From positions 4,232,501 through 4,296,500 of the forward strand of contig NZ_VFOV01000001.1 in NCBI RefSeq assembly GCF_006716315.1: a DNA stretch of 64,000 bases, read 5' to 3'. A program made the translations under genes and the position numbers. The notes beneath the pieces were generated by a model that ran no database searches, was not told the origin of the DNA, and saw only the letters and a program-made list of their open reading frames with translations. This DNA comes from Nocardioides albertanoniae. Lineage in GTDB: Bacteria; Actinomycetota; Actinomycetes; Propionibacteriales; Nocardioidaceae. Positions 3,719 to 47,549 of the stretch are shown here, one piece after another (the first letter of the stretch is position 1; every line of letters begins with the position of its first letter).

Positions 3719-5725
3719 ATGGGCAACCACCGAGCCGACGTCACCAATGACAGTCCGCGTTCGGTCACCCCTTCCCCCGGAGCAAGCACGAGCAACGGCT
3801 ACGTCGGGAAGCGGCGCGCAGCGCCGGCGACCGACAGTCCAGCTTCCAGGCCTGCGCCGCGAGCGACCGGATCGACCTCCTACGTCGGGAAGCGCCGTGC
3901 GGCGCCCGCTCCCGCCGCAGCGACCCCGAATCCCCCCGCCATCTCCGAGACGCCCGAAGAGCCGGTCGCCAAGACCCGGCCCGACCGGGTGGTGCTGGAG
4001 CAGACCGGCGCCCAGCCGATCGTCGAGGCGCCTCGCGCCCTGAGCTCCACCGACGGCCGCATCTCGACCGGTGAGCTGCGCGCTCTCGTCGAGGGCGACA
4101 CCGGCTCCTCCCCCTTCCCCGCGACGTTCCCGACGTCGCCGCCCCAGCCGAAGCCGGCTGCGCGGCCGATCGTGCCCGTGCAGCGGCGCGCCAGCCAGGT
4201 CGACCCGGTGCTGGCCGACCTGCTCTCCTCGATGGGCATCGACCCCGACAAGGTGACCCCCGACGTCCTCGACGACCTCGGTGTCGGTGGCATGACCACC
4301 TCTGAGCTCACCAAGTTCCTCACCCAGCCGACCAAGGCCGCGCCGATGAAGCGCGCGACCAGCCGCTCGACGTCGCCGCAGACGCCGCCCCGCGGCATCC
4401 CGGCGGCCCCCGAGGCTGCTGCTCCCGAGGCTGCGCGCCCCGAGCCGGCCGCGCCCGTGGCGCCTGTCGTGCCGGAGCCCACCTTCAAGGCGCCCGAGCC
4501 GACCCACACGCCGAAGCCGCTGCGGATGGCCAACACCTTCGCCCCGCTGACCGGCAAGCTCCGGGCCGTCCGCCAGCCGCGCCAGGCGCCGGCTCCCACC
4601 TACCCGGCGCCGGCCCCCGCCGCCCAGGAGCCCCGCGGGTTCCAGGAGGCCTACGACGCGCCGCCGTCGTCGTTCCAGATCGACACCACCTCGTTCCCGG
4701 CGCCCCCGGTCTCCCTGCCGCAGCAGATCGACTTCGACTCGATGGCGATCGACCTCCCGGCCGAGACCTACGCAGCCGAGGTTCCCTACTACACGGAGCC
4801 GCAGGCCGAGGCGCCCTACCAGGGTTATGAGGATGGCTACGCGCAGCGGCAGCCCGAGTCCTACTTCCGCGCCGAGACCGGCAGCATCGACCTGCCGAGC
4901 ATCAGCGAGATCGCGACCTACGGATCCGACCTGCACGACCTCCCGGCGGTCGAGACCACCGGCACCATGGTCGGCATCGGCGGTCCCACCAAGCCGCGCA
5001 CGCGTCGTGTGAACGCCACGCCGTCCGGCGGCAGCCGGCCGACCGTCCCGATGACCGCCGGCGCCGCCGCCCTGGCCGCCGCGATCGGCGGCATCGCGCT
5101 CACCGGCGGCCCGACGATGGTCGCGGCCGACGACGTACGCCTCGTCGGAGCCACGGCGCTCGGCGGCGACAGCGACATGGTCGCGGTCGGCGACCGGTCG
5201 GCGACCGTGACGCGTAACGACGAGCGCTCGCAGACCGACACCGCGGCGAGCGACCGCGAGAAGGCGCTGCAGGGCATCGACGTGCAGGCCGACAAGCAGG
5301 ACAAGTTCCTCAAGTCCAACATGTGGGAGCTCCCGATCCCCACGGGCGTCTACCACATCACCGGCACCTTCGGCTCCTCCGGCGCCAACTGGTCCAGCAC
5401 CCACACGGGTCTCGACTTCGCGGCGCCCTACGGCACTCCGATCCACGCCATCGCCCGCGGCACGGTCACCGAGACCGCCTGGGGCGGCGCCTACGGCAAC
5501 CGCACGATCATCACGCTCGAAGACGGCACCGAGATGTGGTACTGCCACCAGAGCGACTACGGCGTCTCCGTCGGCCAGTCGGTCTCCCCCGGTGAGGTCA
5601 TCGGCTACGTCGGTTCGACCGGAAACTCCACCGGCGACCACCTCCATGTCGAGGTCCGCCCCGGTGGTGGTGACGCCGTCGACCCCGACGCCGCCCTCAA
5701 CGAGCACGGCGTAGACCCGAGCTGA
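3719..5725 (+). CDS. M23-family peptidoglycan endopeptidase
   Basis: Predicted cell-wall metallopeptidase of 668 residues. The C-terminal LytM/peptidase M23 domain (about residues 550-660) carries the zinc motifs HTGLD (near 562) and HLHVEV (near 641). The N-terminal two thirds is a low-complexity Pro/Ala-rich region, followed by one hydrophobic segment near 444-466 that could be a signal anchor. The nonapeptide VGKRRAAPA occurs twice, near residues 27 and 54; its role is unknown. The start is ATG 3719 because the GTG at 3677 overlaps the promoter and lacks a ribosome site. It is transcribed alone, diverges from sucCD and ends in a strong hairpin. Likely substrate is a peptide cross-bridge or stem, by family. 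Confidence 0.85.
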   Translation: MGNHRADVTNDSPRSVTPSPGASTSNGYVGKRRAAPATDSPASRPAPRATGSTSYVGKRRAAPAPAAATPNPPAISETPEEPVAKTRPDRVVLEQTGAQPIVEAPRALSSTDGRISTGELRALVEGDTGSSPFPATFPTSPPQPKPAARPIVPVQRRASQVDPVLADLLSSMGIDPDKVTPDVLDDLGVGGMTTSELTKFLTQPTKAAPMKRATSRSTSPQTPPRGIPAAPEAAAPEAARPEPAAPVAPVVPEPTFKAPEPTHTPKPLRMANTFAPLTGKLRAVRQPRQAPAPTYPAPAPAAQEPRGFQEAYDAPPSSFQIDTTSFPAPPVSLPQQIDFDSMAIDLPAETYAAEVPYYTEPQAEAPYQGYEDGYAQRQPESYFRAETGSIDLPSISEIATYGSDLHDLPAVETTGTMVGIGGPTKPRTRRVNATPSGGSRPTVPMTAGAAALAAAIGGIALTGGPTMVAADDVRLVGATALGGDSDMVAVGDRSATVTRNDERSQTDTAASDREKALQGIDVQADKQDKFLKSNMWELPIPTGVYHITGTFGSSGANWSSTHTGLDFAAPYGTPIHAIARGTVTETAWGGAYGNRTIITLEDGTEMWYCHQSDYGVSVGQSVSPGEVIGYVGSTGNSTGDHLHVEVRPGGGDAVDPDAALNEHGVDPS

Positions 5726-5747
5726 CGCGCGCAGCGCGTCAGCTCGG
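5717..5747 (+). terminator. Terminator hairpin overlapping the M23 gene stop
   Basis: A 14-bp perfect stem (5717-5730 with 5734-5747) around a 3-nt loop. The stop codon at 5723-5725 sits in the left arm. Confidence 0.75.
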
Positions 5748-5753
5748 CACAGA

Positions 5754-5824
5754 GCCGAGTCGGCGCAACTGCATGCCTTGGAGCGAAGCGAAGCGAGCGA
5801 GGCGTGCCGTTGCGCCGACTCGGC
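5754..5824. terminator. Long inverted repeat between convergent M23 and pcrA genes
   Basis: Outer arms 5754-5769 and 5809-5824 are perfectly complementary (16 bp, containing CCGAGTCGGCGC). An inner imperfect stem pairs 5771-5778 with 5800-5807, and the tip holds short GCGAAGCGAAGCGAGCG-type repeats. The place and shape fit a bidirectional terminator. The CCGAGTCGG core recurs elsewhere in the window. Confidence 0.7.
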
Positions 5825-5888
5825 GTCTCACGGGGAGACAGCCGCCTCCGAGCGGTCAGAAGCCCCGTGAGCCCTCACCCGCCCCGAA

Positions 5889-8348
5889 TCACAGCTTCTC
5901 GACCGGCGCGTAGCGCAGCAGCAACCGCTTGACCCCCGTCTCCCCGAAGTCGATGCTGGCGACCTGCTTGTCGGCCGCACCCTCGATGGTGACGACGGTG
6001 CCGAGGCCGAACGAGTCGTGGGTGACCCGGTCACCCGGCTCCAGCGACGGGACCTCGCGGGCGGGCTTCGACTTCGCGGCGGCGTCGGCGCGCAGCGCCG
6101 CCGAGGAGAAGTTGCGGCGGCCCGCGGCGGTGGGCTGGCCCAGGCGCTGTCCGTCGCTCCACCGCTCGGTGGCGAAGCTCGGGCGACCCCACGAGCTCAT
6201 CTCCTTCTCCGTACGCTTCCAGTCGACCAGGTCGATCGGGAGCTCGTCGAGGAAACGGCTGCCGGGGTTGTGCGACGGCGCGCCCCAGGCCGACCGGACC
6301 ACCGCCCGCGAGATGAAGAGTCGCTTCTCGGCGCGGGTGATCCCGACGTAGGCGAGGCGGCGCTCCTCCTCGAGCTCGGTGCTGTCGCCGAGGGCTCGTG
6401 AGTGGGGGAAGACGCCGTCCTCCATGCCGGTGAGGAAGACCGCGGGGAACTCCAGCCCCTTGGCGGTGTGCAGCGTCATCAGGGTGACCACGCCGTCTTC
6501 GTCGTCGGGGATCTGATCGGTGTCGGCGACCAGAGCGACCCGCTCGAGGAAGTCGGGGAGGCCGGGCGTGACCGTGCCCGCGTCGACGTCGGCCGGGTCG
6601 GCGCTCGGGGCGGCGACGGGGTCGTCGGCGAACTCGCGCGCCACCGCGACGAGCTCGGCGAGGTTCTCCACGCGGGTCTCGTCCTGCGGGTCGTCGGACT
6701 CCTCCAGCGAGAGGAGATAACCGGAGCGGTCGAGCACGGTCTCCAAGATGACGTCGGCACGCTCACCGGCCGCGACCATCTGCAGCAGCTCCTCGACCAT
6801 GGCCACGAAGGCCTTGATGTTGGTCAGGCTGCGGGTGGCCAGGCCCGGGGCGTCCTCGGCCTTCTGCAGCGCGTCCCAGAAGGTCAGACCGTCGCGCTCG
6901 GCCAGCGCGTTGACGCAGGCAACCGCCCGGTCACCGATGCCTCGCTTGGGTGTGTTGAGGATCCGACGCAGCGAGACCTGGTCGTCGGGGTTGGCCAGGA
7001 TGCGCAGATAGGCGAGAGCGTCACGCACCTCCTTGCGCTCGTAGAAGCGCACTCCGCCGACGACCTTGTAGGGCTGACCGGTGCGGATGAACACCTCCTC
7101 GAAGACGCGCGACTGAGCGTTGGTGCGGTAGAAGACGGCCACGTCGGCGGCCTTGAGCCCGGAGTCGACGAGCTTGTCGATCTCGTCGGAGACGAACCGC
7201 GCCTCGTCACGCTCGTCGTCGGCGACGTAACCGACGATCCGCTCGCCGTTGCCGGCATCGCTCCACAGGGCCTTCTCCTTGCGCCCCTTGTTGTTCTTGA
7301 TGACCGCGTTGGCCGCGGTGAGGATCGTCTGGCTGGAGCGATAGTTCTGCTCCAGCAGGATCGTCGCGGCGTCGGGGAAGTCCTGCTCGAAGTCGAGGAT
7401 GTTGCGGATGTTGGCGCCACGGAAGGCGTAGATGGACTGGTCGGCGTCACCGACCACCATCAGCTCGGCCGGCTCCGCCCGCGGGGTGTCCGGCTCGTAG
7501 GAGTCGGTCAGCGTCGTGTCGTCCATCCGGTCGGCACAGAGCTCGTGGACCAGGGCGTACTGCGCATGGTTGGTGTCTTGATACTCATCGACCAGCACGT
7601 GCCGGAACCGGCGACGGTAGACCTCCCGCACCTCCGGATAGGCCCGGAAGAGCTCGACGGTGGCCATGATCAGGTCGTCGAAGTCGAAGGCGTTCGCCTG
7701 CCGCAGACGCTTCTGATACTCCTTGTAGGCCGCCACATAGGTCTGCTCGAGATGGTTGCGGGCATCCTTCTCAGCGGCCTCGACGTCGCGTAGCTCGTTC
7801 TTCTGGTCGCTGACCCAGTTGAGCACCTGACCGGGCTGGTAGTGGCGCGGGTCGAGGTCGAGATCGCTCAGCACCAGCTGCATCAGCCGCTTCTGGTCCT
7901 GGGCGTCGTAGATCGAGAAGTTGGACTTGAGCCCCACCTTGTCGATCTCCTTGCGGAGGATGCGCACGCAGGCGCTGTGGAACGTGCTCACCCACATGAT
8001 CCGCGCCCGCTTGCCGACCAGATCCTCGACGCGCGCCTTCATCTCGGCGGCGGCCTTGTTGGTGAACGTGATCGCCAGGATGCTGCCCGGGTGGACGCCG
8101 CGCTGGGAGATCAGCCAGGCGATCCGCCGGGTCAGCACGCGAGTCTTGCCCGACCCCGCACCGGCGACCACCAGGAGCGGCGCCCCTCGGTGCTGCACCG
8201 CCGCCTTCTGGGGCTCGTTGAGCCCGTCGAGCAGCTCCTCCGTGGTCGGCCCGCCACGTTTCGTACGCGGCTCGTCGGCGGGCTGCGTCGAGGCGAAGGC
8301 CTCGAGGCCCGGGATGGATGCGAGTGGGGTCTGATCAGGCGTACTCAT
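5889..8348 (-). CDS. pcrA: ATP-dependent DNA helicase PcrA/UvrD1
   Basis: Superfamily 1A 3'-5' DNA helicase in repair and replication-fork maintenance. The 819-residue product has the Q-motif LNEPQKAAV (near 43), Walker A VAGAGSGKT (61-69), DEYQDTNHAQY (motif II), GDADQSIYAFRGA (III), a late TAKGLEFPAVFLTGMEDG block (V) and VGITRAEKRLF (VI). It ends in the Tudor-like domain (GDRVTHDSFGLGTVVTIEG) that actinobacterial and Bacillus PcrA use to bind RNA polymerase. The start ATG is preceded by GGAG at 5 nt and by TAGGCT at 8358-8363. It lies 88 bp downstream of the MFS gene and converges on the M23 gene. Confidence 0.96.
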   Translation of the reverse strand: MSTPDQTPLASIPGLEAFASTQPADEPRTKRGGPTTEELLDGLNEPQKAAVQHRGAPLLVVAGAGSGKTRVLTRRIAWLISQRGVHPGSILAITFTNKAAAEMKARVEDLVGKRARIMWVSTFHSACVRILRKEIDKVGLKSNFSIYDAQDQKRLMQLVLSDLDLDPRHYQPGQVLNWVSDQKNELRDVEAAEKDARNHLEQTYVAAYKEYQKRLRQANAFDFDDLIMATVELFRAYPEVREVYRRRFRHVLVDEYQDTNHAQYALVHELCADRMDDTTLTDSYEPDTPRAEPAELMVVGDADQSIYAFRGANIRNILDFEQDFPDAATILLEQNYRSSQTILTAANAVIKNNKGRKEKALWSDAGNGERIVGYVADDERDEARFVSDEIDKLVDSGLKAADVAVFYRTNAQSRVFEEVFIRTGQPYKVVGGVRFYERKEVRDALAYLRILANPDDQVSLRRILNTPKRGIGDRAVACVNALAERDGLTFWDALQKAEDAPGLATRSLTNIKAFVAMVEELLQMVAAGERADVILETVLDRSGYLLSLEESDDPQDETRVENLAELVAVAREFADDPVAAPSADPADVDAGTVTPGLPDFLERVALVADTDQIPDDEDGVVTLMTLHTAKGLEFPAVFLTGMEDGVFPHSRALGDSTELEEERRLAYVGITRAEKRLFISRAVVRSAWGAPSHNPGSRFLDELPIDLVDWKRTEKEMSSWGRPSFATERWSDGQRLGQPTAAGRRNFSSAALRADAAAKSKPAREVPSLEPGDRVTHDSFGLGTVVTIEGAADKQVASIDFGETGVKRLLLRYAPVEKL

Positions 8349-39691: not shown

Positions 39692-39730
39692 CCCTTGACG
39701 CGCACCGTCGAGGGCGCTCTGCTGGTCAGC

Positions 39731-40600
39731 ATGGAGCAGATGCTGGCGGTCAACGGGGTCGATCTGTGCGTCGAGACCTTCGGAGCCCCCGAGGGTCCAC
39801 CGATCCTGCTGATCGGCGGGATGAGCGCCTCGATGGACTACTGGGAGGACGACTTCTGCGAGGCCCTCGCCGCGGGCGGGAGGTTCGTGATCCGCTACGA
39901 CCACCGCGACACCGGTCGTTCGACCAGCTGGCCTCCGGGCGAGCCGGGCTACACCGGGCGCGACATGGTCGCCGACATCCCGGCGCTGCTCGACGCCGTC
40001 GGCCTCGACAGGGCCCACCTCTTCGGCATCTCGATGGGCGGCGCGCTGGCCCAGTGCGTCGCGGTGCTGCACCCGGAGCGGGTCGAGACGCTGATCCTCG
40101 ACGAGACCTCACCGGCCTTCGAGGGCGTGCCCGGCGTGCCGCCCATCGGTGAGGAGCTGGCCGACTTCTTCGAGAAGGCCTCGCAGAGCACGATGCCCGA
40201 CCCCGACGACCACGAAGCCCTGGTGACGATGCTGGTCGAGGACCAGCGCGCGTTCGTACCCGAGCGGTTCGACGAAGGCAGGATGCGAGCGGTGGTCACC
40301 CAGGCCGTACGCCGCACGCCCGACATGCGTCCGAGCCTGGCCAACCACCACGTGATGGGCGACGGCGAGCCGATCACCGCCACCCTGGCCGACATCACCG
40401 CTCCGACCCTGGTCATCCACGGCACCCGCGACCCGCTCTTCCCGACAGGTCACGGCGAGGTGCTCGCCGAGGGCATCCCCGACGCCACCCTGCTCATGCT
40501 CGACGGCGTCGGCCACGAGCCTCCGCCGATCTACACCTGGGAGACGGTCGTGCCCGCGATCCTCGACCACACCACCGCGCGACCAGACCCTAGGCGCTGA
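39731..40600 (+). CDS. Alpha/beta hydrolase
   Basis: A 289-residue alpha/beta-hydrolase-fold protein. The oxyanion region is LLIGGMSASMDYW, followed by RFVIRYDHRDTGRS, the nucleophile elbow GISMGG, the acid in HGTRDPLFP and the late His in GVGHEPPP. The substrate is not predictable; aclacinomycin-esterase-like or lactone hydrolases are similar. The ATG at 39731 gives a conventional N-terminus (MEQMLAVNGVDLC); the TTG at 39695 is an alternative start. The last 11 bp overlap the end of the convergent carboxylase gene. Confidence 0.85.
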   Translation: MEQMLAVNGVDLCVETFGAPEGPPILLIGGMSASMDYWEDDFCEALAAGGRFVIRYDHRDTGRSTSWPPGEPGYTGRDMVADIPALLDAVGLDRAHLFGISMGGALAQCVAVLHPERVETLILDETSPAFEGVPGVPPIGEELADFFEKASQSTMPDPDDHEALVTMLVEDQRAFVPERFDEGRMRAVVTQAVRRTPDMRPSLANHHVMGDGEPITATLADITAPTLVIHGTRDPLFPTGHGEVLAEGIPDATLLMLDGVGHEPPPIYTWETVVPAILDHTTARPDPRR

Positions 40601-42323
40601 TCTTCCCGAGCGGATCCCCCATCGCGACGGCCCCACCGACATCGGTGCCGTGCGCGAGCACCCCCGCGCGGTGGGCGGCGACGCGCGTCTCCATCTTCAT
40701 GGCGTCGATCGCCGCGACGTCCTGGCCCTCGGTGACCTGCTCCCCGTCGCCGACGAGCCAGCTGACCAGCACCCCGGGCACGGGAGCCTCGATCACGCCG
40801 GGGTCAGCCTCCACGCCGGCTTCGGCGTCAGCATCGGTCTCCCCCACGGTTCCGCCCGCTGCGAGCGCTCGCAGCAGATCCTCCGGCAGCCCGAGCACCA
40901 TCCGGCGTCCGTCGACCTCGATCGGCACCCGCCGCAGCGACAGGTCCGGTGCCGGCTCCGACCTCGGCTGCGCCTCCAGCCGCGGCATCAGCTCGGTCTC
41001 GATCCACTGCGTGTGCACCGCGAAACCGGTCGTCGAGAACGCCGGATCCTCGAGCAGCAGGCGGGCGAATGGCACGACGGTCGCGACCCCCTCGACCGAG
41101 AGCTCACGCAGCGCACGGCGCGCACGTACGACGGCGGTGTCTCGGTCGGGCGCGTGCACGATCAGCTTGGCGATCAGCGAGTCGAAGGCGCCCTGCACGG
41201 TGTCGCCCGCCTCGATCCCGGCATCCCAGCGGATGCCCGGGCCGGCAGGCACCCGCAGCCCCGTGACGACGCCGGGGCTCGGCAGGAAGCCGCGACCGGA
41301 GTCCTCCGCGTTGATGCGCAGCTCGACGGCGTGGCCCGAGGGCGTCGGCGTCTCGTCGATCGAGAGGCCGGCGCCGGCCGCGATCCGCAGCTGCTCGGCG
41401 ACCAGGTCGACGCCCGTGACGGCCTCGGTGATCGGGTGCTCGACCTGGAGCCGGGTGTTGACCTCGAGGAACGAGATCACGCCGTCCTCCCCCATCAGGA
41501 ACTCCACGGTGCCGGCCCCTCGATAGGAGACGGCGGCGCAGATGTCTCGCGAGGCCTCATGGATGCGGCGACGCTGCTCGTCGCTCAGCCCCGGAGCAGG
41601 CGCCTCCTCGACGAGCTTCTGGTTGCGGCGCTGCAGCGAGCAGTCGCGGTCACCGACGACCACGACCCGGCCGGCACCGTCGCCGACGACCTGCGCCTCG
41701 ATGTGGCGCGGCCGCTCCAGGAACCGCTCCACGAAGCACTCGCCGCGGCCGAACGCGGCCTCCGCCTCGCGCGAGGCGGACTCGAAGGCGTCGGCGACGT
41801 CGTCGAGCCGCCGGGCGACCTTCAGCCCGCGGCCGCCGCCCCCGAAGGCCGCCTTGATCGCGATCGGCAGGCCGTGCTCGCGCGCGAACGCGACCGCCTC
41901 GTCGGCCGACTCGAGCGGACGATCGGTGCCCGCGACCAGCGGCGCGCCGACGCTCTGCGCGATCCGGCGGGCGGTGATCTTGTCGCCGAGGGCCTCGATG
42001 TTGTCCGGGGTCGGGCCGATCCAGATCATCCCCGCGCGCTCGACCGCGCGCGCGAGCTCGGCGCTCTCGGAGAGGAACCCGTAGCCCGGATGGACGGCGT
42101 CGGCACCGGCGGCGTGCGCGGCGGCCATGATCCACTCGATGCTGAGATAGGAGTCGGCGGCGGTGGCGCCGCCGAGCGCGAAGGCCTCGTCGGCCAGACG
42201 CACGTGCAACGCGTCGGCGTCCTGGTCGGCATAGACGGCGATCGACACGAGGTCGGCCTCCGCAACCGCCCGCACCACGCGGACGGCGATCTCTCCCCTG
42301 TTGGCGATGAGCACCCTGCGCAT
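40590..42323 (-). CDS. Biotin carboxylase-BCCP subunit of a putative lactam/amide carboxylase
   Basis: A 577-residue protein with an N-terminal biotin carboxylase (RRVLIANRGEIAVRVVRA, ATP-grasp loop AAFGGGGRGLKV, EVNTRLQVEHPITEAVTG) and a C-terminal biotinyl domain. The biotin Lys is near 543 in DAMKMETRV. No carboxyltransferase of the AccD type lies nearby. Instead, one base upstream is the fused PxpB-PxpC gene, and KipI/KipA-type domains form the carboxyltransferase of urea carboxylase. I therefore infer a split carboxylase acting on a lactam, urea-like or amide substrate. An ordinary acyl-CoA carboxylase alpha subunit is the alternative. GAGGAG lies before the ATG; last gene of the operon. 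Confidence 0.9.
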   Translation of the reverse strand: MRRVLIANRGEIAVRVVRAVAEADLVSIAVYADQDADALHVRLADEAFALGGATAADSYLSIEWIMAAAHAAGADAVHPGYGFLSESAELARAVERAGMIWIGPTPDNIEALGDKITARRIAQSVGAPLVAGTDRPLESADEAVAFAREHGLPIAIKAAFGGGGRGLKVARRLDDVADAFESASREAEAAFGRGECFVERFLERPRHIEAQVVGDGAGRVVVVGDRDCSLQRRNQKLVEEAPAPGLSDEQRRRIHEASRDICAAVSYRGAGTVEFLMGEDGVISFLEVNTRLQVEHPITEAVTGVDLVAEQLRIAAGAGLSIDETPTPSGHAVELRINAEDSGRGFLPSPGVVTGLRVPAGPGIRWDAGIEAGDTVQGAFDSLIAKLIVHAPDRDTAVVRARRALRELSVEGVATVVPFARLLLEDPAFSTTGFAVHTQWIETELMPRLEAQPRSEPAPDLSLRRVPIEVDGRRMVLGLPEDLLRALAAGGTVGETDADAEAGVEADPGVIEAPVPGVLVSWLVGDGEQVTEGQDVAAIDAMKMETRVAAHRAGVLAHGTDVGGAVAMGDPLGKISA

Positions 42324-42324
42324 G

Positions 42325-43944
42325 TCAGTCTCCTCGGATCTCGGCCGCCGACGCGACGGTTCTGAAGCGGATATGGACTCCGGGCGGCAGCTGCCCGGCG
42401 AGGTCGAGGTCGCGGTCGATGACCGCGCCGATGATCGGATAGCCGCCGGTGAGCGGGTGGTCCGGGAGGAACAGCACCGGCTGGCCGTCGGGCGGCACCT
42501 GGATGGCGCCGGTCACCGCGCCCTCGCTCGGCAGCTCGCCGGTCACGGCTCGCTCGAGTGGCACGGCCCCTTCGAGGCGTACGCCGACGCGGTCGGAGCG
42601 CGGCGTGATGGTCCAGTCCTGCTCCAGCAGGGTGCGTACGCCGGCGTCGGTGAACCAGTCCTCACGCGGACCGAGCACGATGCGCAGCTCGACGGTCTCA
42701 CCGGCCGCCGGCAGCGGCTCGGCGGGCGCCGGGCAGGGGTCGACGGCGTACGGTGCCGCGGCCGGGCCGTGCAGCGGCACCAGGTCACCCGGGCGCAGGG
42801 GCCGCCCGCCGAGGTCACCGGGGCCGAGGCCCGCGAGGGTGTCGCTCGAGAGGCTGCCGAGGGCCGGTGGCAGGTCGAGCCCGCCACGCACCGCGAGCAC
42901 CGTACGCAGCCCGGTGCTCAGCGGGCCGAGCCACAGCTCGTCGCCGTGCTCGACCGCGGTCGCCGCACCGTGCTCCACGAGGAGCTCCGGGCCGTCGCTG
43001 CGCTCGATCGTCGTCTCGGCCGGCGCCCCCGTCACCGCGACGACGGCTGCGCCGGTGAAGCGCAGCACCGCGCCGCCGCCCGCGATCTCGAAGGCCGCGG
43101 CATCAGGTGCGTTGCCGACCGCGCGGTTCGCGGCGCGCAGCGCACGCCGGTCGGCCGCTCCCGACGCCGAGACACCGAGCGCGGCGTGGCCGGGGCGGCC
43201 GAGGTCCTGGAGCACGAGCTGCAGGCCGGGGCGTACGACCTCGACGGCGAAGGGATGCTCGTGCTCGGCAGGCGCGGCGGGTCCGGAACGTTCGGAGGAC
43301 ACGGCCGACGGCTCGACCGTGACCGACTCACGCTCGAGCTGCTCGAAGTGCACCGTCGTGCCGGGCACGAGCAGCGCAGGCGGGTCGCGGTCGAGATCCC
43401 ACATCGCCGCATCCGTACGCCCGATCAGCTGCCACCCGCCGGGGCTCTCCCGCGGATAGATGCCGGAGAACGTGCCTGCCAGGCCCACGGATCCGGCGGG
43501 GATGCGCGTGCGCGGCGACGATCGCCGCGGCACGTCGAAGATCGGGTCGTCACCGACCAGGTAGCCGAAGCCGGGCGCGTAGCCGGTGAACGCCACCTGC
43601 CAGGTCGCTGCGGTGTGCCGCGCGGCGACCTGCTCCGCGGTGATCCCGAGGAGGCTCGCGACGTCGTCGAGATCCTGCCCGTCGTAGCGCACCCCGATCC
43701 TCACCGAGCCGGCCTCCTCGGGGCCGCCGTGGACCGGTTCGACGGCATGCAGCTGCCGGGTGAGGGTCGCGGCGTCGACAAGGGTGCGGTCGAACCGCAC
43801 GAGCACCGTGCGTGCGGCCGGCACCAGCTCGACGACCCCGGCCAGGGGATCCGCCACCAGCGCCGCGTGCAGGCGCATCGACGCATCGAGGTCGGCCTCC
43901 TCCACCAGGAGCGAGGTCTCCGATGCGGTCAGCACGCGCCTCAT
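42325..43944 (-). CDS. Fused PxpB-PxpC (KipI-KipA, AHS1-AHS2 domains)
   Basis: A 539-residue fusion of the two 5-oxoprolinase subunits that are usually separate. Residues about 1-215 are PxpB/KipI ([42 protein letters not shown]). Residues about 235-539 are PxpC/KipA ([46 protein letters not shown]). In Bacillus, PxpB and PxpC with PxpA open 5-oxoproline with ATP, and the same folds form the carboxyltransferase of urea carboxylase. It overlaps the hydro-lyase gene by 4 bp and ends one base before the biotin carboxylase start, so equal expression is likely. Confidence 0.92.
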
Positions 43945-44735
43945 GCGAGGTGGTCCGCATCCGGCACGTTGGTGACGAACATGTGGCCGGGCGCGTGGGT
44001 CAGCGCGAACGGCGGGCGCGAGGCCATGATCGCCGCCTGCGGGGTGACGCCGCAGGCCCAGAAGACCGGCACCTCCCCCTCGCGCACCTCGGACGCGTCG
44101 CCGAACTCGGGGGCGTCGAGGTCGGTGATACCGAGCCCGCTCGGGTCACCGACGTGCACCGGCGCGCCGTGCACCGCAGGGTAGCGCCCGGAGATGCGTA
44201 CGGCGTCGGCGACGCGGTCGCCGGGGATCGGGCGCATGGAGACGACCAGGTCACCGCTCAGGCGTCCGGCCGGCGCACAGGCTCGCGACGTACGGAACAT
44301 GGGTACGTTGCGGCCCAGCTCCTGGTGGCGGATCGGGATGCCCGCCTCGGCCAGGCCCGCCTCGAAGGTGAAGCTGCAGCCGATCAGGAACGAGACCAGG
44401 TCGGGGTGCTCCTCCCAGGCGCTGCTCGCATCCGAGACCTCCTCGGCGAGCTCGCCGTCGCGCCAGACGCGGTAGGCGGGGAGGTCGGTGCGCAGGTCCG
44501 ACCCGGGGGCCATCGTCGACTCGCAGGCGCCCGGGTCGAGCACCTCGAGCACCGGGCAGGGTTTCGGGTTGCGCTGCGCGAACAGCAGCACGTCGAAGGC
44601 CCAGTCGGCCGGCACGGCGATCAGGTTCGCCTGCACCAGCCCGTGGGCGACGCCGCTGGTGGGCGCGACGGCGCCCGCTCGGTAGGACGAGCGGGCGGCG
44701 CGGGCCTCAGCGACCTGGGCGATGGTTGCGGTCAT
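43941..44735 (-). CDS. DUF1445 putative hydro-lyase (D-glutamate cyclase-like)
   Basis: A 264-residue protein of the DUF1445/YcsI family, which includes the domain of D-glutamate cyclases that interconvert D-glutamate and 5-oxo-D-proline. Recognisable segments are [58 protein letters not shown] and the late [13 protein letters not shown] with [10 protein letters not shown] near the C-terminus. It overlaps both neighbours by 4 bp. Its position between pxpA and pxpBC matches the Bacillus ycsFGI-kip arrangement. It may feed or drain the pathway's ring compound. Confidence 0.9.
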
Positions 44736-45502
44736 GCCACCCTTCCCGCGAACGGAGCGATCTCGATGCCCTCGGCCTCCAGCAGGGCACGCGTAGCCGC
44801 GGCCATCTCGATGGCCCCGGCGCTGTCGCCGTGCACGCAGATCGAGTCGGCACGTACGGCCACGTCGCTGCCGTCGATCGCCTCGATCACACCCTCGCGC
44901 GCGAGCCGCAGCATGCGGGTCGCGACGGCGTCGGCGTCGTGGAGCACCGCACCCTCCTCGCTGCGCGAGACGAGCTCGCCACCAGGGGTGTAGGCGCGGT
45001 CGGCGAAGGCCTCCGCGGCCGTCGCGAGGCCGGCGGCCTCGGCCACGTCGAGCACCACGCCGCCGGCGAGCCCGAGGAGCACCAGCGACGGGTCGATCGC
45101 CCTGACGGCGGCCACGACGTCACGCGCCTGCCGCTCGTCGCGGGCGATGGTGTTGTAGAGCGCACCGTGCGGCTTCACGTAGCGGACCGCGCCGTCGACC
45201 GACGCGGTCAGGCCGAGCAGCGCACCGAGCTGATACTCCACATGAGCCTGCAGGGTCGCGGAGTCGACATCCATCGCGCGACGGCCGAAGCCCTCGTAGT
45301 CGCGGTAGCTGGGATGTGCGCCGATGGTGACCCCGTGGGCGACGGCATCGGCGAGGGTCGTACGGATGCCTTCGGGGCTGCCGGCGTGGAACCCGCAGGC
45401 GACGTTGGCGCTGGAGACGATGCCCAGCATGGCGCCGTCGTCGGCGACGACGCGCTCGGGCACGTTCTCGCCGAGGTCGGAATTGAGATCGATGGTGGTC
45501 AT
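44732..45502 (-). CDS. pxpA: 5-oxoprolinase subunit A (LamB/YcsF family)
   Basis: A 256-residue member of the LamB/YcsF family. Signature features are the start [53 protein letters not shown] and SICVHGDS, all with conserved Asp/His residues. In the Bacillus and Escherichia enzyme, PxpA hydrolyses the activated 5-oxoproline made by PxpBC. It overlaps the hydro-lyase gene by 4 bp and lies one base after the transporter gene. The extra carboxylase in this operon leaves open whether the substrate is 5-oxoproline or another lactam. Confidence 0.94.
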
Positions 45503-45503
45503 A

Positions 45504-46760
45504 TCAGCCTCCGATGCCGATGAACGCGAAGATCGGGCCGACCGAGACGCTGCCCATGTACCAGGTGAGCAGGGTCGCGAGCGTGCCCAGGATGAGCAAC
45601 CACTTCGGGTAGCGGTACCCGCCGAGCACGTCGCTCTGACGGAACCAGCCGATGTACATGAAGATCGTCATGCCGATCGGCAGGATCAGGCCGTTGAAGC
45701 CTCCGACGAAGACCAGGATCGCCGCCGGCGCGGCACCGATCAGCAGGTAGAGCACCAGCGAGACCATGATGAACGCGACGGTCGCCAGCTGCAGCGGCCG
45801 GCCGACGCCGAGCTTCTTCGAGAAGGTCGAGATGAACGTCGCCGAGGTGTAGGCGGCGCCGATGACCGAGGTGATCGCGGCGGCCCAGAAGATCGCGCCG
45901 AAGATGCGGATGCCGGCGTCGCCGAGCACGACGCCGAACGCCTGGCCGGCCGGGTTGGCGGCTGCCGAGGAGAAGTCGAGGGCCACGCCCGAGGCCACCA
46001 CGCCGAGGATCGCGAGGAAGAGTACGTAGCGCATGAGGCCGGTCACGAGGATGCCGCTCAGCGAGGCGCGGTGCACGGCTCCGACGTGCTCGGGGCCGGT
46101 GAGGCCGGAGTCGAGGTAGCGGTGGGCGCCCGCGTAGGTGATGTAACCGCCGACGGTGCCACCGACGATCGTGGTGATCGTGGCGAAGTTGAGGGTGTCG
46201 GGCGCGAAGGTCTGGCGCAGTGCGTCGCCGACAGGAGGCTGGGACGCGACCGCGACGATCAGCGTCAGCACGATCATCAGCATGCCGAGCCCGAGCACGA
46301 CCATGTCGACCACGCGGCCCGCCCGCTTGTAGAGGAAGATCCCGATCGCGAGCAGTGCCGACAGCAGGCCACCGAGCTTCGGATCGATGCCGAGGAGGGC
46401 GTTGAGGCCGAGACCGGCACCGGCGATGTTGCCGATGTTGAACGCCAGGCCGCCGATCACGATCAGCACCGCGAGCACGTGGCCCGAGAACGGCACCGCC
46501 TCGTTGGCGAGGTCACCTGCTCGTTTGCCCGAGACGGTGATGATCCGCCACACGTTCATCTGCAGCGCGAAGTCGATCGCGATCGAGGCCAGGATCGCGA
46601 AGGCGAACGCCGCGCCGAGCTGGGCGGTGAACGTCGCGGTCTGCGTGATGAACCCGGGGCCGATGGCCGAGGTGGCCATCAGGAAGATCGCGCCGAGGAT
46701 GGGGCCTCGGCGTGAGCTGGCAAAGCTCTTCGCGCGTTCTGCGCTGGTCGTCTCGGACAT
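45504..46760 (-). CDS. NRAMP-like transporter lacking canonical metal motifs
   Basis: A 418-residue, 11-helix protein of the NRAMP superfamily, YcsG group. At the places where manganese/iron NRAMPs have DPGN (helix 1) and A/CxxMPH (helix 6), this protein reads [11 protein letters not shown] and [13 protein letters not shown]; neither motif is kept. With its position at the head of the pxp operon it more likely imports the operon's organic substrate (5-oxoproline, lactam or amide) than a metal. This is inference. Its start codon (complement 46758-46760) faces the GntR gene over 147 bp that contain paired operators. Confidence 0.88.
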
Positions 46761-46808
46761 GGGGGACTCCTGCTGTCAGCGGCCGGTGTGGCTGGCACCA
46801 CATCTTTT

Positions 46809-46841
46809 ATGTAGTACAAGATGACACAGATTGTTCTACAA
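46809..46841. promoter_or_regulatory. Paired GntR (FCD-type) operators
   Basis: ATGTAGTACAA (46809-46819) and TTGTTCTACAA (46831-46841) match a TTGT-N3-ACAA half-site pattern; the second is a perfect 4-3-4 palindrome and the first has one mismatch. Their centres are 22 bp apart, two helical turns, on one face of the DNA. They lie between the transporter and GntR genes. The surrounding DNA is AT-rich. Confidence 0.65.
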
Positions 46842-46873
46842 TGACACCCTGGCTTGTTAAAATGGCGTTTCGA

Positions 46874-46907: not shown

Positions 46908-47549
46908 ATGCCCGAGGTCGAGGACACCCTGACGAACGCCCTGCGTCGGCGGATCATCGACGGTGAGTTCGCCCCCGGCACCCGGCTCTCGGAGATCTCC
47001 CTCGCCGAGAGGCTCGGGGTCTCCCGCAACACGCTGCGCGAGGCGTTCCGGGTGCTCTCCGAGCAGGGCCTCGTCGAGCATGTGCCTCACCGCGGCGTCT
47101 CGGTGGCGTCACCGACCGTGGCCGATGTCGTCGACATCTACCGAGCACGCCGCTACGTCGAGCCTGCCGCCCTGGCCGCGGGATCTCCGCTCCACCCCGC
47201 CGTGGCCGGGATGCGGGAGGCGGTGGAGCAGAGCGAGCTCAGCCTCGAGGCCCGCGACTGGCGTACGGTCGGCACCGCCAACATGGCCTTCCACGACGGG
47301 ATCGTCGCCCTGGCGGACAGCCCCCGCCTGGAGCGCCTCTTCCGCGACATCGCCGCCGAGCTGCGGCTCGCGTTCCTCGAGATCGACAACCCCGAGGCCC
47401 TGCACGCCCCGTTCGTCACCCGCAACCGCGCTCTGCTCGAGACCTTCCTCGGCCAGGGCGGACCGGCCGCCGCCGCCGAGCTGCAGGACTACCTGGTGCT
47501 CTCCGAGCAGACCGTGCTCGGCGCGTTCACACGCCTGCGACGCACCTGA
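46908..47549 (+). CDS. GntR-family regulator, FCD type
   Basis: A 213-residue transcription factor. The N-terminal winged helix (RRRIIDGEFAPGTRLSEISL, then AERLGVSRNTLREAFRVLSEQGLV) is followed by an all-helical FCD ligand-binding domain (about 80-205) whose metal-binding His candidates include FHDGIVALA. Divergence from the pxp-type operon and the paired TTGT-N3-ACAA sites in between make it the operon's regulator, probably released by the substrate or product. Its own promoter overlaps no operator; the sites are 55-90 bp upstream. Confidence 0.92.
   Translation: MPEVEDTLTNALRRRIIDGEFAPGTRLSEISLAERLGVSRNTLREAFRVLSEQGLVEHVPHRGVSVASPTVADVVDIYRARRYVEPAALAAGSPLHPAVAGMREAVEQSELSLEARDWRTVGTANMAFHDGIVALADSPRLERLFRDIAAELRLAFLEIDNPEALHAPFVTRNRALLETFLGQGGPAAAAELQDYLVLSEQTVLGAFTRLRRT

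Follow-up and report, generated by a model that had tools for sequence, protein, structure and literature searches.

The stretch analyzed is a 64-kb window (64,000 nucleotides) of the Nocardioides albertanoniae genome, in which five minus-strand genes (40590-46760) and a divergent regulator gene form a probable operon for the catabolism of 5-oxoproline (5-OP), a cyclic form of glutamate. The operon brings together homologues of the 5-oxoprolinase proteins PxpA, PxpB and PxpC, the last two fused (PxpBC), and a protein joining a biotin carboxylase (BC) to a biotin carboxyl carrier protein (BCCP). It is very probable that PxpBC and BC-BCCP are functional partners. The features of the locus were as follows.

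45504..46760, minus strand: NRAMP-like transporter of PxpT/YcsG type (Pfam Nramp, 66.8 bits)
44732..45502, minus strand: PxpA, LamB/YcsF family (Pfam LamB_YcsF, 302.8 bits; NCBIfam PxpA subfamily, 328 bits, cut-off 226)
43941..44735, minus strand: D-glutamate cyclase family protein (D-Glu_cyclase, DUF1445, PRK05463 "putative hydro-lyase"; Pfam, 218 bits; NCBIfam, 394 bits, cut-off 324)
42325..43944, minus strand: fused PxpB-PxpC, proposed carboxyltransferase (Pfam CT_C_D, 204 bits, and CT_A_B, 280 bits)
43330..43944, minus strand: PxpB part (KipI-like, CT_C_D), residues 1-205, with Arg140, Arg141 and Arg145
42325..43254, minus strand: PxpC part (KipA-like, CT_A_B), residues 231-539
40590..42323, minus strand: BC-BCCP protein of AccA3 type (Pfam Biotin_carb_N, CPSase_L_D2, Biotin_carb_C and Biotin_lipoyl)
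40974..42323, minus strand: BC part of BC-BCCP, catalytic residues kept
40593..40823, minus strand: BCCP part (Pfam Biotin_lipoyl), biotinylation motif AMKM with Lys543 (codon 40695-40697; MKM, residues 542-544)
46908..47549, plus strand: divergent GntR/FCD regulator, PxpR-like (Pfam GntR and FCD)
46828..46844, plus strand: PxpR-type operator-like site AGATTGTTCTACAATGA (identical to the Corynebacterium glutamicum site at 14 of 17 positions)

All five minus-strand open reading frames (ORFs) were verified, and their coordinates and Pfam families agreed with the 1-bp gaps or 4-bp overlaps given in a preliminary description of the locus. The nearest named proteins were those of Nocardioides. Thus, 1 bp separated the transporter gene from the PxpA gene and the PxpBC gene from the BC-BCCP gene, and overlaps of 4 bp joined the D-glutamate cyclase gene to the PxpA gene and the PxpBC gene to the D-glutamate cyclase gene. 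The region had been drawn to 46841, which is 81 bp past the start of the transporter gene (46760); the extra stretch corresponds to the divergent promoter with most of the operator-like site. The locus had also been likened to the Bacillus ycs/kip arrangement. This was correct for the gene set, which is the same, but not for the gene order, which is nearer, as is the divergent regulator, to C. glutamicum, where pxpR faces away from pxpT-A-B-C (PMC13274462). Since it was found repeatedly in two phyla, the arrangement is not due to chance.

The active site of the BC part and the biotin lysine motif were intact, as expected of a biotin-dependent carboxylase. The residues with catalytic roles in E. 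coli BC (K116, K159, E201, H209, K238, E276, E288, N290, R292, E296, and R338) were all identical in the aligned window protein. Association of this protein with PxpBC was frequent, contrary to the rarity that had been named beforehand as an argument against the pairing. Among 80 named loci (the best 80 of 560 confirmed fused-PxpBC loci, from 43 named genera), PxpA was present in 80, BC and BCCP in 72, an NRAMP-like transporter in 42, and the D-glutamate cyclase in 36. BC-BCCP lay just downstream of PxpC and co-oriented with it in all 72 BC-containing loci (median spacing between PxpC and BC matches, 41 nt), which comprised 52 of the 52 fused loci of Pseudomonadota and 20 of the 28 of Actinomycetota.

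When six of the genome's own AccD-type proteins were used as tblastn queries, no AccD-type transferase was found in the window, as the preliminary description had stated, nor in any of 100 loci (the 80 named ones plus 20 of Nocardioides) by the same search, which does detect the AccD-type gene of another locus of the window genome (L017, see below). The AccD-type subunit that would mark an operon for an AccA3-type acyl-CoA carboxylase was thus found in none of these loci. Ten genomes with a linked operon, those of Gilliamella and Kushneria being drafts, were inventoried for BC, CT_A_B and PF01039. Four of them (Photorhabdus thracensis, Providencia rettgeri, Gilliamella apis, and Kushneria phyllosphaerae) contained exactly two BC genes, the pxp BC-BCCP and an AccC-sized one of around 450 aa, and one CT_A_B gene each. 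No full-length PF01039 protein (AccD/PccB) was detected in these four, just AccA/AccD-like halves of around 300 aa, two or three per genome; among the families searched, PxpBC is therefore their sole non-housekeeping carboxyltransferase candidate. As judged from its sequence, it is also the only candidate partner found in the operon. The remaining six genomes had more BC, CT_A_B or PF01039 genes and were not decisive. BC-BCCP may feed the housekeeping AccA/AccD. The separate AccD-type partner considered in the preliminary description was thus rejected for the 100 loci and the four named genomes; six PF01039 matches lie elsewhere in the window genome. These matches would allow BC-BCCP to serve an AccD-type protein encoded elsewhere, its place in the operon being a metabolic convenience; with no AccD match near any of the 100 loci, and with PF01039 halves plus a separate AccC-sized BC in the four genomes, we regard this as extremely unlikely.

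The best PDB sequences for BC-BCCP, both matched over nearly their full length, were 5mlk_A (669.7 bits), presumably M. tuberculosis AccA3, and the AccA3 of 9yx5 (662.1 bits), a sequence common to seven PDB entries including 9yx5. The latter entry, taken here from its chain names and title (M. smegmatis long chain acyl-CoA carboxylase complex with MSMEG_0435-MSMEG_0436 bound; released 2025-11-26), contains AccA3 plus MSMEG_0435, a PxpC homologue, and MSMEG_0436, a PxpB homologue. The PxpBC homologues of M. smegmatis, according to these names, bind an AccA3-containing carboxylase complex. Homologues of both window proteins thus occur in one solved complex; its BC-BCCP is, however, the AccA3 common to acyl-CoA carboxylases, whereas the window operon encodes its own. 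Together with the linkage in 72 of 80 loci and the lack of a PccB-type alternative in four of ten genomes, this complex bears out the earlier proposal that the two proteins belong together. PxpBC might instead be a regulator that binds AccA3-type carboxylases and restrains acyl-CoA carboxylation under nitrogen shortage, not an enzyme working with them. Such a role would agree with the binding to the long-chain acyl-CoA carboxylase complex in 9yx5, with the name kinase inhibitor borne by KipI, and with the approximately twofold increase of MSMEG_0435-0436 under nitrogen limitation (PMC4617892). It is nevertheless very unlikely, as the Pseudomonadota examined have the operon BC-BCCP beside a separate AccC-sized BC, and the four genomes without a PccB-type enzyme would offer no such target to inhibit.

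For the BC trees, the 78 fused-type BC rows were thinned to 29 at 80% identity. The pxp-linked BCs of two phyla and the AccA3 proteins of the window's class formed one clade (100* with 33 rows; 100/100 with 41 rows), inside which AccA3 was a supported subclade (100/98). Branching within the clade was weak, the pxp group falling on a single side of a branch in 19% of bootstrap trees, so that either AccA3 or pxp BC may have given rise to the other. Window BC-BCCP shares with mycobacterial AccA3 the BC-linker-BCCP architecture and this well-supported clade, but it has no linked gene for an acyl-CoA carboxyltransferase subunit. Three urea-carboxylase BCs grouped apart, in a clade of their own (100*). 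The preliminary description had spoken of a possible split urea-carboxylase-type enzyme. Descent from a urea carboxylase by splitting was rejected: BC-BCCP groups with AccA3 and not with urea-carboxylase BC, and the general-base lysine of urea carboxylase is replaced by arginine.

A single-chain model of PxpBC (mean predicted local distance difference test score 75.7 from 20 close sequences, hence read at fold level only) matched MSMEG_0435, TTHA0988, YbgJK, and the K. lactis urea amidolyase/carboxylase. By this modelled fold, the window encodes PxpB and PxpC homologues of the YbgJK and MSMEG_0435-0436 type, next to a PxpA that exceeds its subfamily cut-off. The NCBIfam equivalog cut-offs were not reached by PxpB (126.4 bits, cut-off 145.55) or PxpC (181.2 bits, cut-off 500), and the window protein is therefore called a relative that probably works like PxpBC, not the equivalog. 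As compared with the PxpABC systems of B. subtilis, E. coli and C. glutamicum (pxpTABC/PxpR in the latter), the window operon has the same PxpA, PxpB and PxpC domains, an NRAMP-like transporter, a divergent GntR gene and a similar operator; it differs in the PxpB-PxpC fusion, in the added BC-BCCP and in the missed cut-offs.

Urea carboxylase (K. lactis 3va7/5i8i; L018:5093-8773 in the window genome) likewise contains BC, BCCP and KipA/KipI-type carboxyltransferase parts. In contrast to its single BC-carboxyltransferase-BCCP chain, the window system consists of two ORFs (TIGR02712, 524.1 and 188.9 bits; cut-off 1303.85), its BC belongs to the AccA3 group instead of the urea-carboxylase clade, and PxpA stands beside it instead of an allophanate hydrolase. 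Lys1605 of the K. lactis enzyme is the likely general base of the carboxyltransferase (PMC5770610). Its column, identified as Lys995 of the window genome's own urea carboxylase by counting along an alignment that ends at about that point, in a loop aligned by sequence only, is occupied by Arg140 in window PxpB. Arginine was found there in all BC-linked (29 chosen rows), fused BC-less (8/8) and split (30/30) PxpB rows, and lysine in the three urea carboxylases and in five of eight other BC-linked sets, L017 included, with arginine in the remaining three. Arg140 would be a poor base, yet it would suit a carboxylate-bearing substrate such as 5-OP. No residue stood out as separating BC-linked from BC-less PxpBC, the conserved columns being nearly alike, and this weakens the idea that biotin is used by the BC-linked forms only: either both groups use it or neither does. 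Split UCT genes were already noted, without a function, by Lombard and Moreira 2011 (PMC3199775).

The window genome contains three CT_C_D genes, namely those of the pxp operon, of a second BC-linked set (L017) and of the full-length urea carboxylase at L018:5093-8773 (1226 aa), so that urea carboxylation is already covered elsewhere in the genome. The set at L017:7255-11541 (around 2629-2634 kb) encodes PxpA, a small separate BCCP (EVMKM), BC, PxpB, and PxpC; a LysR gene lies on the opposite strand, an AccD-type gene occupies 4710-6233, and the urea-carboxylase base column holds lysine.

The regulatory region pointed to 5-OP as the substrate. In C. glutamicum, growth on 5-OP requires pxpTABC, repressed by the GntR-type PxpR; PxpR binds 5-OP with a dissociation constant of 726 nM, its site is agattgttcaacaatct, and the use of 5-OP depends on PxpT, as it does on YcsG in B. 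subtilis (PMC13274462). In the window, AGATTGTTCTACAATGA lies in the intergenic region of the GntR and transporter genes and is the sole site with at least 13 of the 17 bases of the C. glutamicum site in the 64 kb; 14 of 17 was attained in one of 2000 dinucleotide shuffles of this intergenic region. Divergent GntR matches upstream of the pxp genes occurred in 63 of the 80 named loci. PxpR-type sites with at least 14 of 17 bases were present in 45 of 56 intergenic regions as compared with 4 of 2240 dinucleotide shuffles; these regions were those of the window and 55 of the 80 named loci, 17 having been dropped for want of a divergent GntR match in range and eight for a gap of 600 bp or more. 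Within Nocardioides, PxpR-type sites were present in all nine split-type loci that had both a GntR and an NRAMP match (14-16/17), and all four other fused-type loci had one as well (13-14/17). With its operator-like site and GntR/FCD gene, the window operon may be induced by 5-OP through a PxpR-like protein. Regulators of the GntR family can have similar half-sites in common, and the site is therefore strong but not final evidence for 5-OP. In addition, a pyroglutamyl peptidase gene, whose product frees 5-OP from peptides, directly preceded pxpA in 4 of the 80 loci.

Taken together, the operator-like site and these neighbours make 5-OP the most likely substrate, and we hold with considerable confidence that it is the substrate of the window operon. 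The preliminary description had left the choice between a lactam, an amide and 5-OP; the operator narrows this to 5-OP as the most likely of them. PxpBC and BC-BCCP could carboxylate another lactam, an amide or a carbon acid, 5-OP being merely the inducer, and the wider family probably acts on more than one substrate in view of the lysine in five and the arginine in three of the eight other BC-linked sets. For the window operon this is improbable, given the PxpR-type site, the PxpT and PxpA homologues, the peptidase neighbours, and the distribution within Nocardioides. PxpB/C-type matches occurred in all 59 Nocardioides genomes and the fused form in five (79-86% identity in the other four); two of these five, G000 and G038, had one further PxpC-type match each (39%), that of G000 being L017, with no other among the matches listed. 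Five of the 59 genomes therefore have the fused operon instead of the split one, which counts against a substrate other than 5-OP. The DUF1445 protein had been thought to act on the product; its presence in just 36 of 80 loci does not favor this, and the family name, D-glutamate cyclase, suggests that it makes 5-oxo-D-proline instead.

The reading that we favor, and consider fairly probable, is a biotin-dependent 5-oxoprolinase acting through N-carboxylation of 5-OP. The NRAMP-like transporter, to judge from its homology, is the probable importer of 5-OP, and the GntR protein would sense it. The BC part would spend ATP and bicarbonate on carboxylating the biotin of the attached BCCP, after which carboxybiotin would move to PxpBC, a relative of the urea-carboxylase transferase, which would place CO2 on the lactam nitrogen. 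By analogy with the conversion of urea to allophanate, N-carboxylation would render the ring carbonyl electrophilic, and PxpA, a probable ring-opening hydrolase by family, would hydrolyze the carboxylated ring, after which the glutamate carbamate would shed CO2. The net reaction (5-OP + ATP + 2 H2O to glutamate + ADP + phosphate) does not differ from that of the accepted scheme, and a need for bicarbonate and biotin could therefore have been overlooked.

Several observations weigh against this mechanism. The 5-oxoprolinase activity of B. subtilis was reportedly rebuilt from recombinant PxpA, PxpB and PxpC alone, which speaks against biotin being required in that species, and E. coli pxpABC is not known to have an adjoining BC gene. 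The general-base lysine of urea carboxylase is replaced in all 29 BC-linked PxpB rows, and the binding in 9yx5 could be inhibitory or incidental. Across the phylum of the window, CT_A_B was present in 28 of 108 genomes; the 31 gene places examined in them comprised 8 with a separate BC gene nearby, 2 urea carboxylases, and 21 without BC in the examined stretch. Nocardioides loci were examined in the four other fused-type genomes and in 16 of the 54 others: BC-BCCP was present in all four of the former and BC absent from all 16 of the latter, split-type loci (PxpA in 15; transporter, regulator and D-glutamate cyclase in nine each). BC was also missing from 8 of the 80 named fused operons, all of Actinomycetota, one of these being the contig-end locus L088. 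At least five changes are forced by supported branches, out of six for six rows without L088 and L128, or out of seven with L088 included (L128, with no ORF long enough, was dropped from both counts); BC has thus been lost repeatedly, which may point to a dispensable BC. Finally, phosphorylation of 5-OP by PxpB/PxpC is assumed in print (PMC13274462).

These points suggest the alternative that PxpABC is biotin-free and phosphorylates 5-OP, with BC-BCCP as an accessory off the catalytic path that might, for instance, supply carboxyphosphate locally or act as a carrier pool. The published assumption, the at least five BC losses, the reported B. subtilis reconstitution, and the nearly identical conserved columns of BC-linked and BC-less PxpBC all agree with it. 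In contrast, BC is kept in all 52 Pseudomonadota fused loci, its active site and biotin lysine are intact in the window protein, the modelled PxpBC fold matches the urea-carboxylase transferase, and AccA3 of the same clade is retained in most of the BC-less genomes searched; on balance, we consider the alternative unlikely. AccA3 was searched in seven of the eight BC-less fused genomes (L142 left out). Six of them contained one unlinked BC-BCCP of around 600 aa inside the AccA3 subclade, which fits a borrowing of AccA3 as in 9yx5. No AccA3 was found in the seventh, L088, a further point against the biotin-dependent mechanism; the sole match there was of 1255 aa, and its pxp contig stops right after PxpBC.

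The biotin-dependent mechanism could be extended, tentatively and with more doubt than confidence, to all or most prokaryotic PxpABC systems, which would be biotin- and bicarbonate-dependent with PxpBC as the carboxyltransferase everywhere. Operons without BC-BCCP (M. smegmatis, C. glutamicum, and split-type Nocardioides) would then borrow the housekeeping carrier, AccA3 or, in other organisms, AccB/AccC, and CO2 would be a recycled activator hidden by its cancelling in the net reaction. If so, the disposal of 5-OP would be tied to biotin, bicarbonate and the fatty-acid machinery. All cells form 5-OP spontaneously from glutamine and glutamate, PxpABC was the system for its removal in most prokaryote genomes of an earlier study, and the way in which PxpABC spends ATP is an assumption only (PMC13274462). 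Should BC perform the ATP step, the chemistry, cofactor needs and origin of the PxpABC system would all change, the short list of biotin-dependent carboxylases would gain a new substrate, and mycobacterial AccA3 would acquire a role in nitrogen salvage; a CO2-first ring opening differs from the published route and is directly testable. No title or abstract opening surveyed, nor the consulted portions of PMC8453981, PMC13274462 and PMC7642360, joins PxpABC to a BC. Within this literature, the parts are known and the novelty lies in their combination and its chemistry. The nearest published case is that of Lactiplantibacillus pentosus, in which an extra copy of BCCP and BC genes and also pxpB/pxpC, absent from Lp. 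plantarum, are described, the two being treated separately (PMC12427679).

The eight loci of the phylum survey with a separate BC displayed at least three different gene orders. In a distant family (L151, L154, and L156) the order was PxpB-PxpC-BC-D-glutamate cyclase-PxpA, with the BCs in a 100* clade of their own, and in one family of the phylum (L152, L155, L157, and L163) BC lay on the strand opposite PxpB-PxpC-PxpA. BC may have joined the pxp system more than once, which supported branches do not force.

Downstream of the window operon lies a convergent gene for an alpha/beta hydrolase (39695-40600) that resembles macrolide-esterase models without reaching their cut-offs; it shares 11 bp with the 3' end of the BC-BCCP gene. 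Where the NRAMP-like transporter was missing in other loci, DUF969-DUF979 genes occurred upstream of pxpA (L099:5326-7073 and L097:4458-7113). They were matched in 6 of the 80 loci, in one of these further away, with a pyroglutamyl peptidase alongside in L097 and L102, and are a candidate alternative 5-OP transporter. An MFS protein (L083) or TctC (L115) was present in place of the NRAMP-like transporter in other loci.

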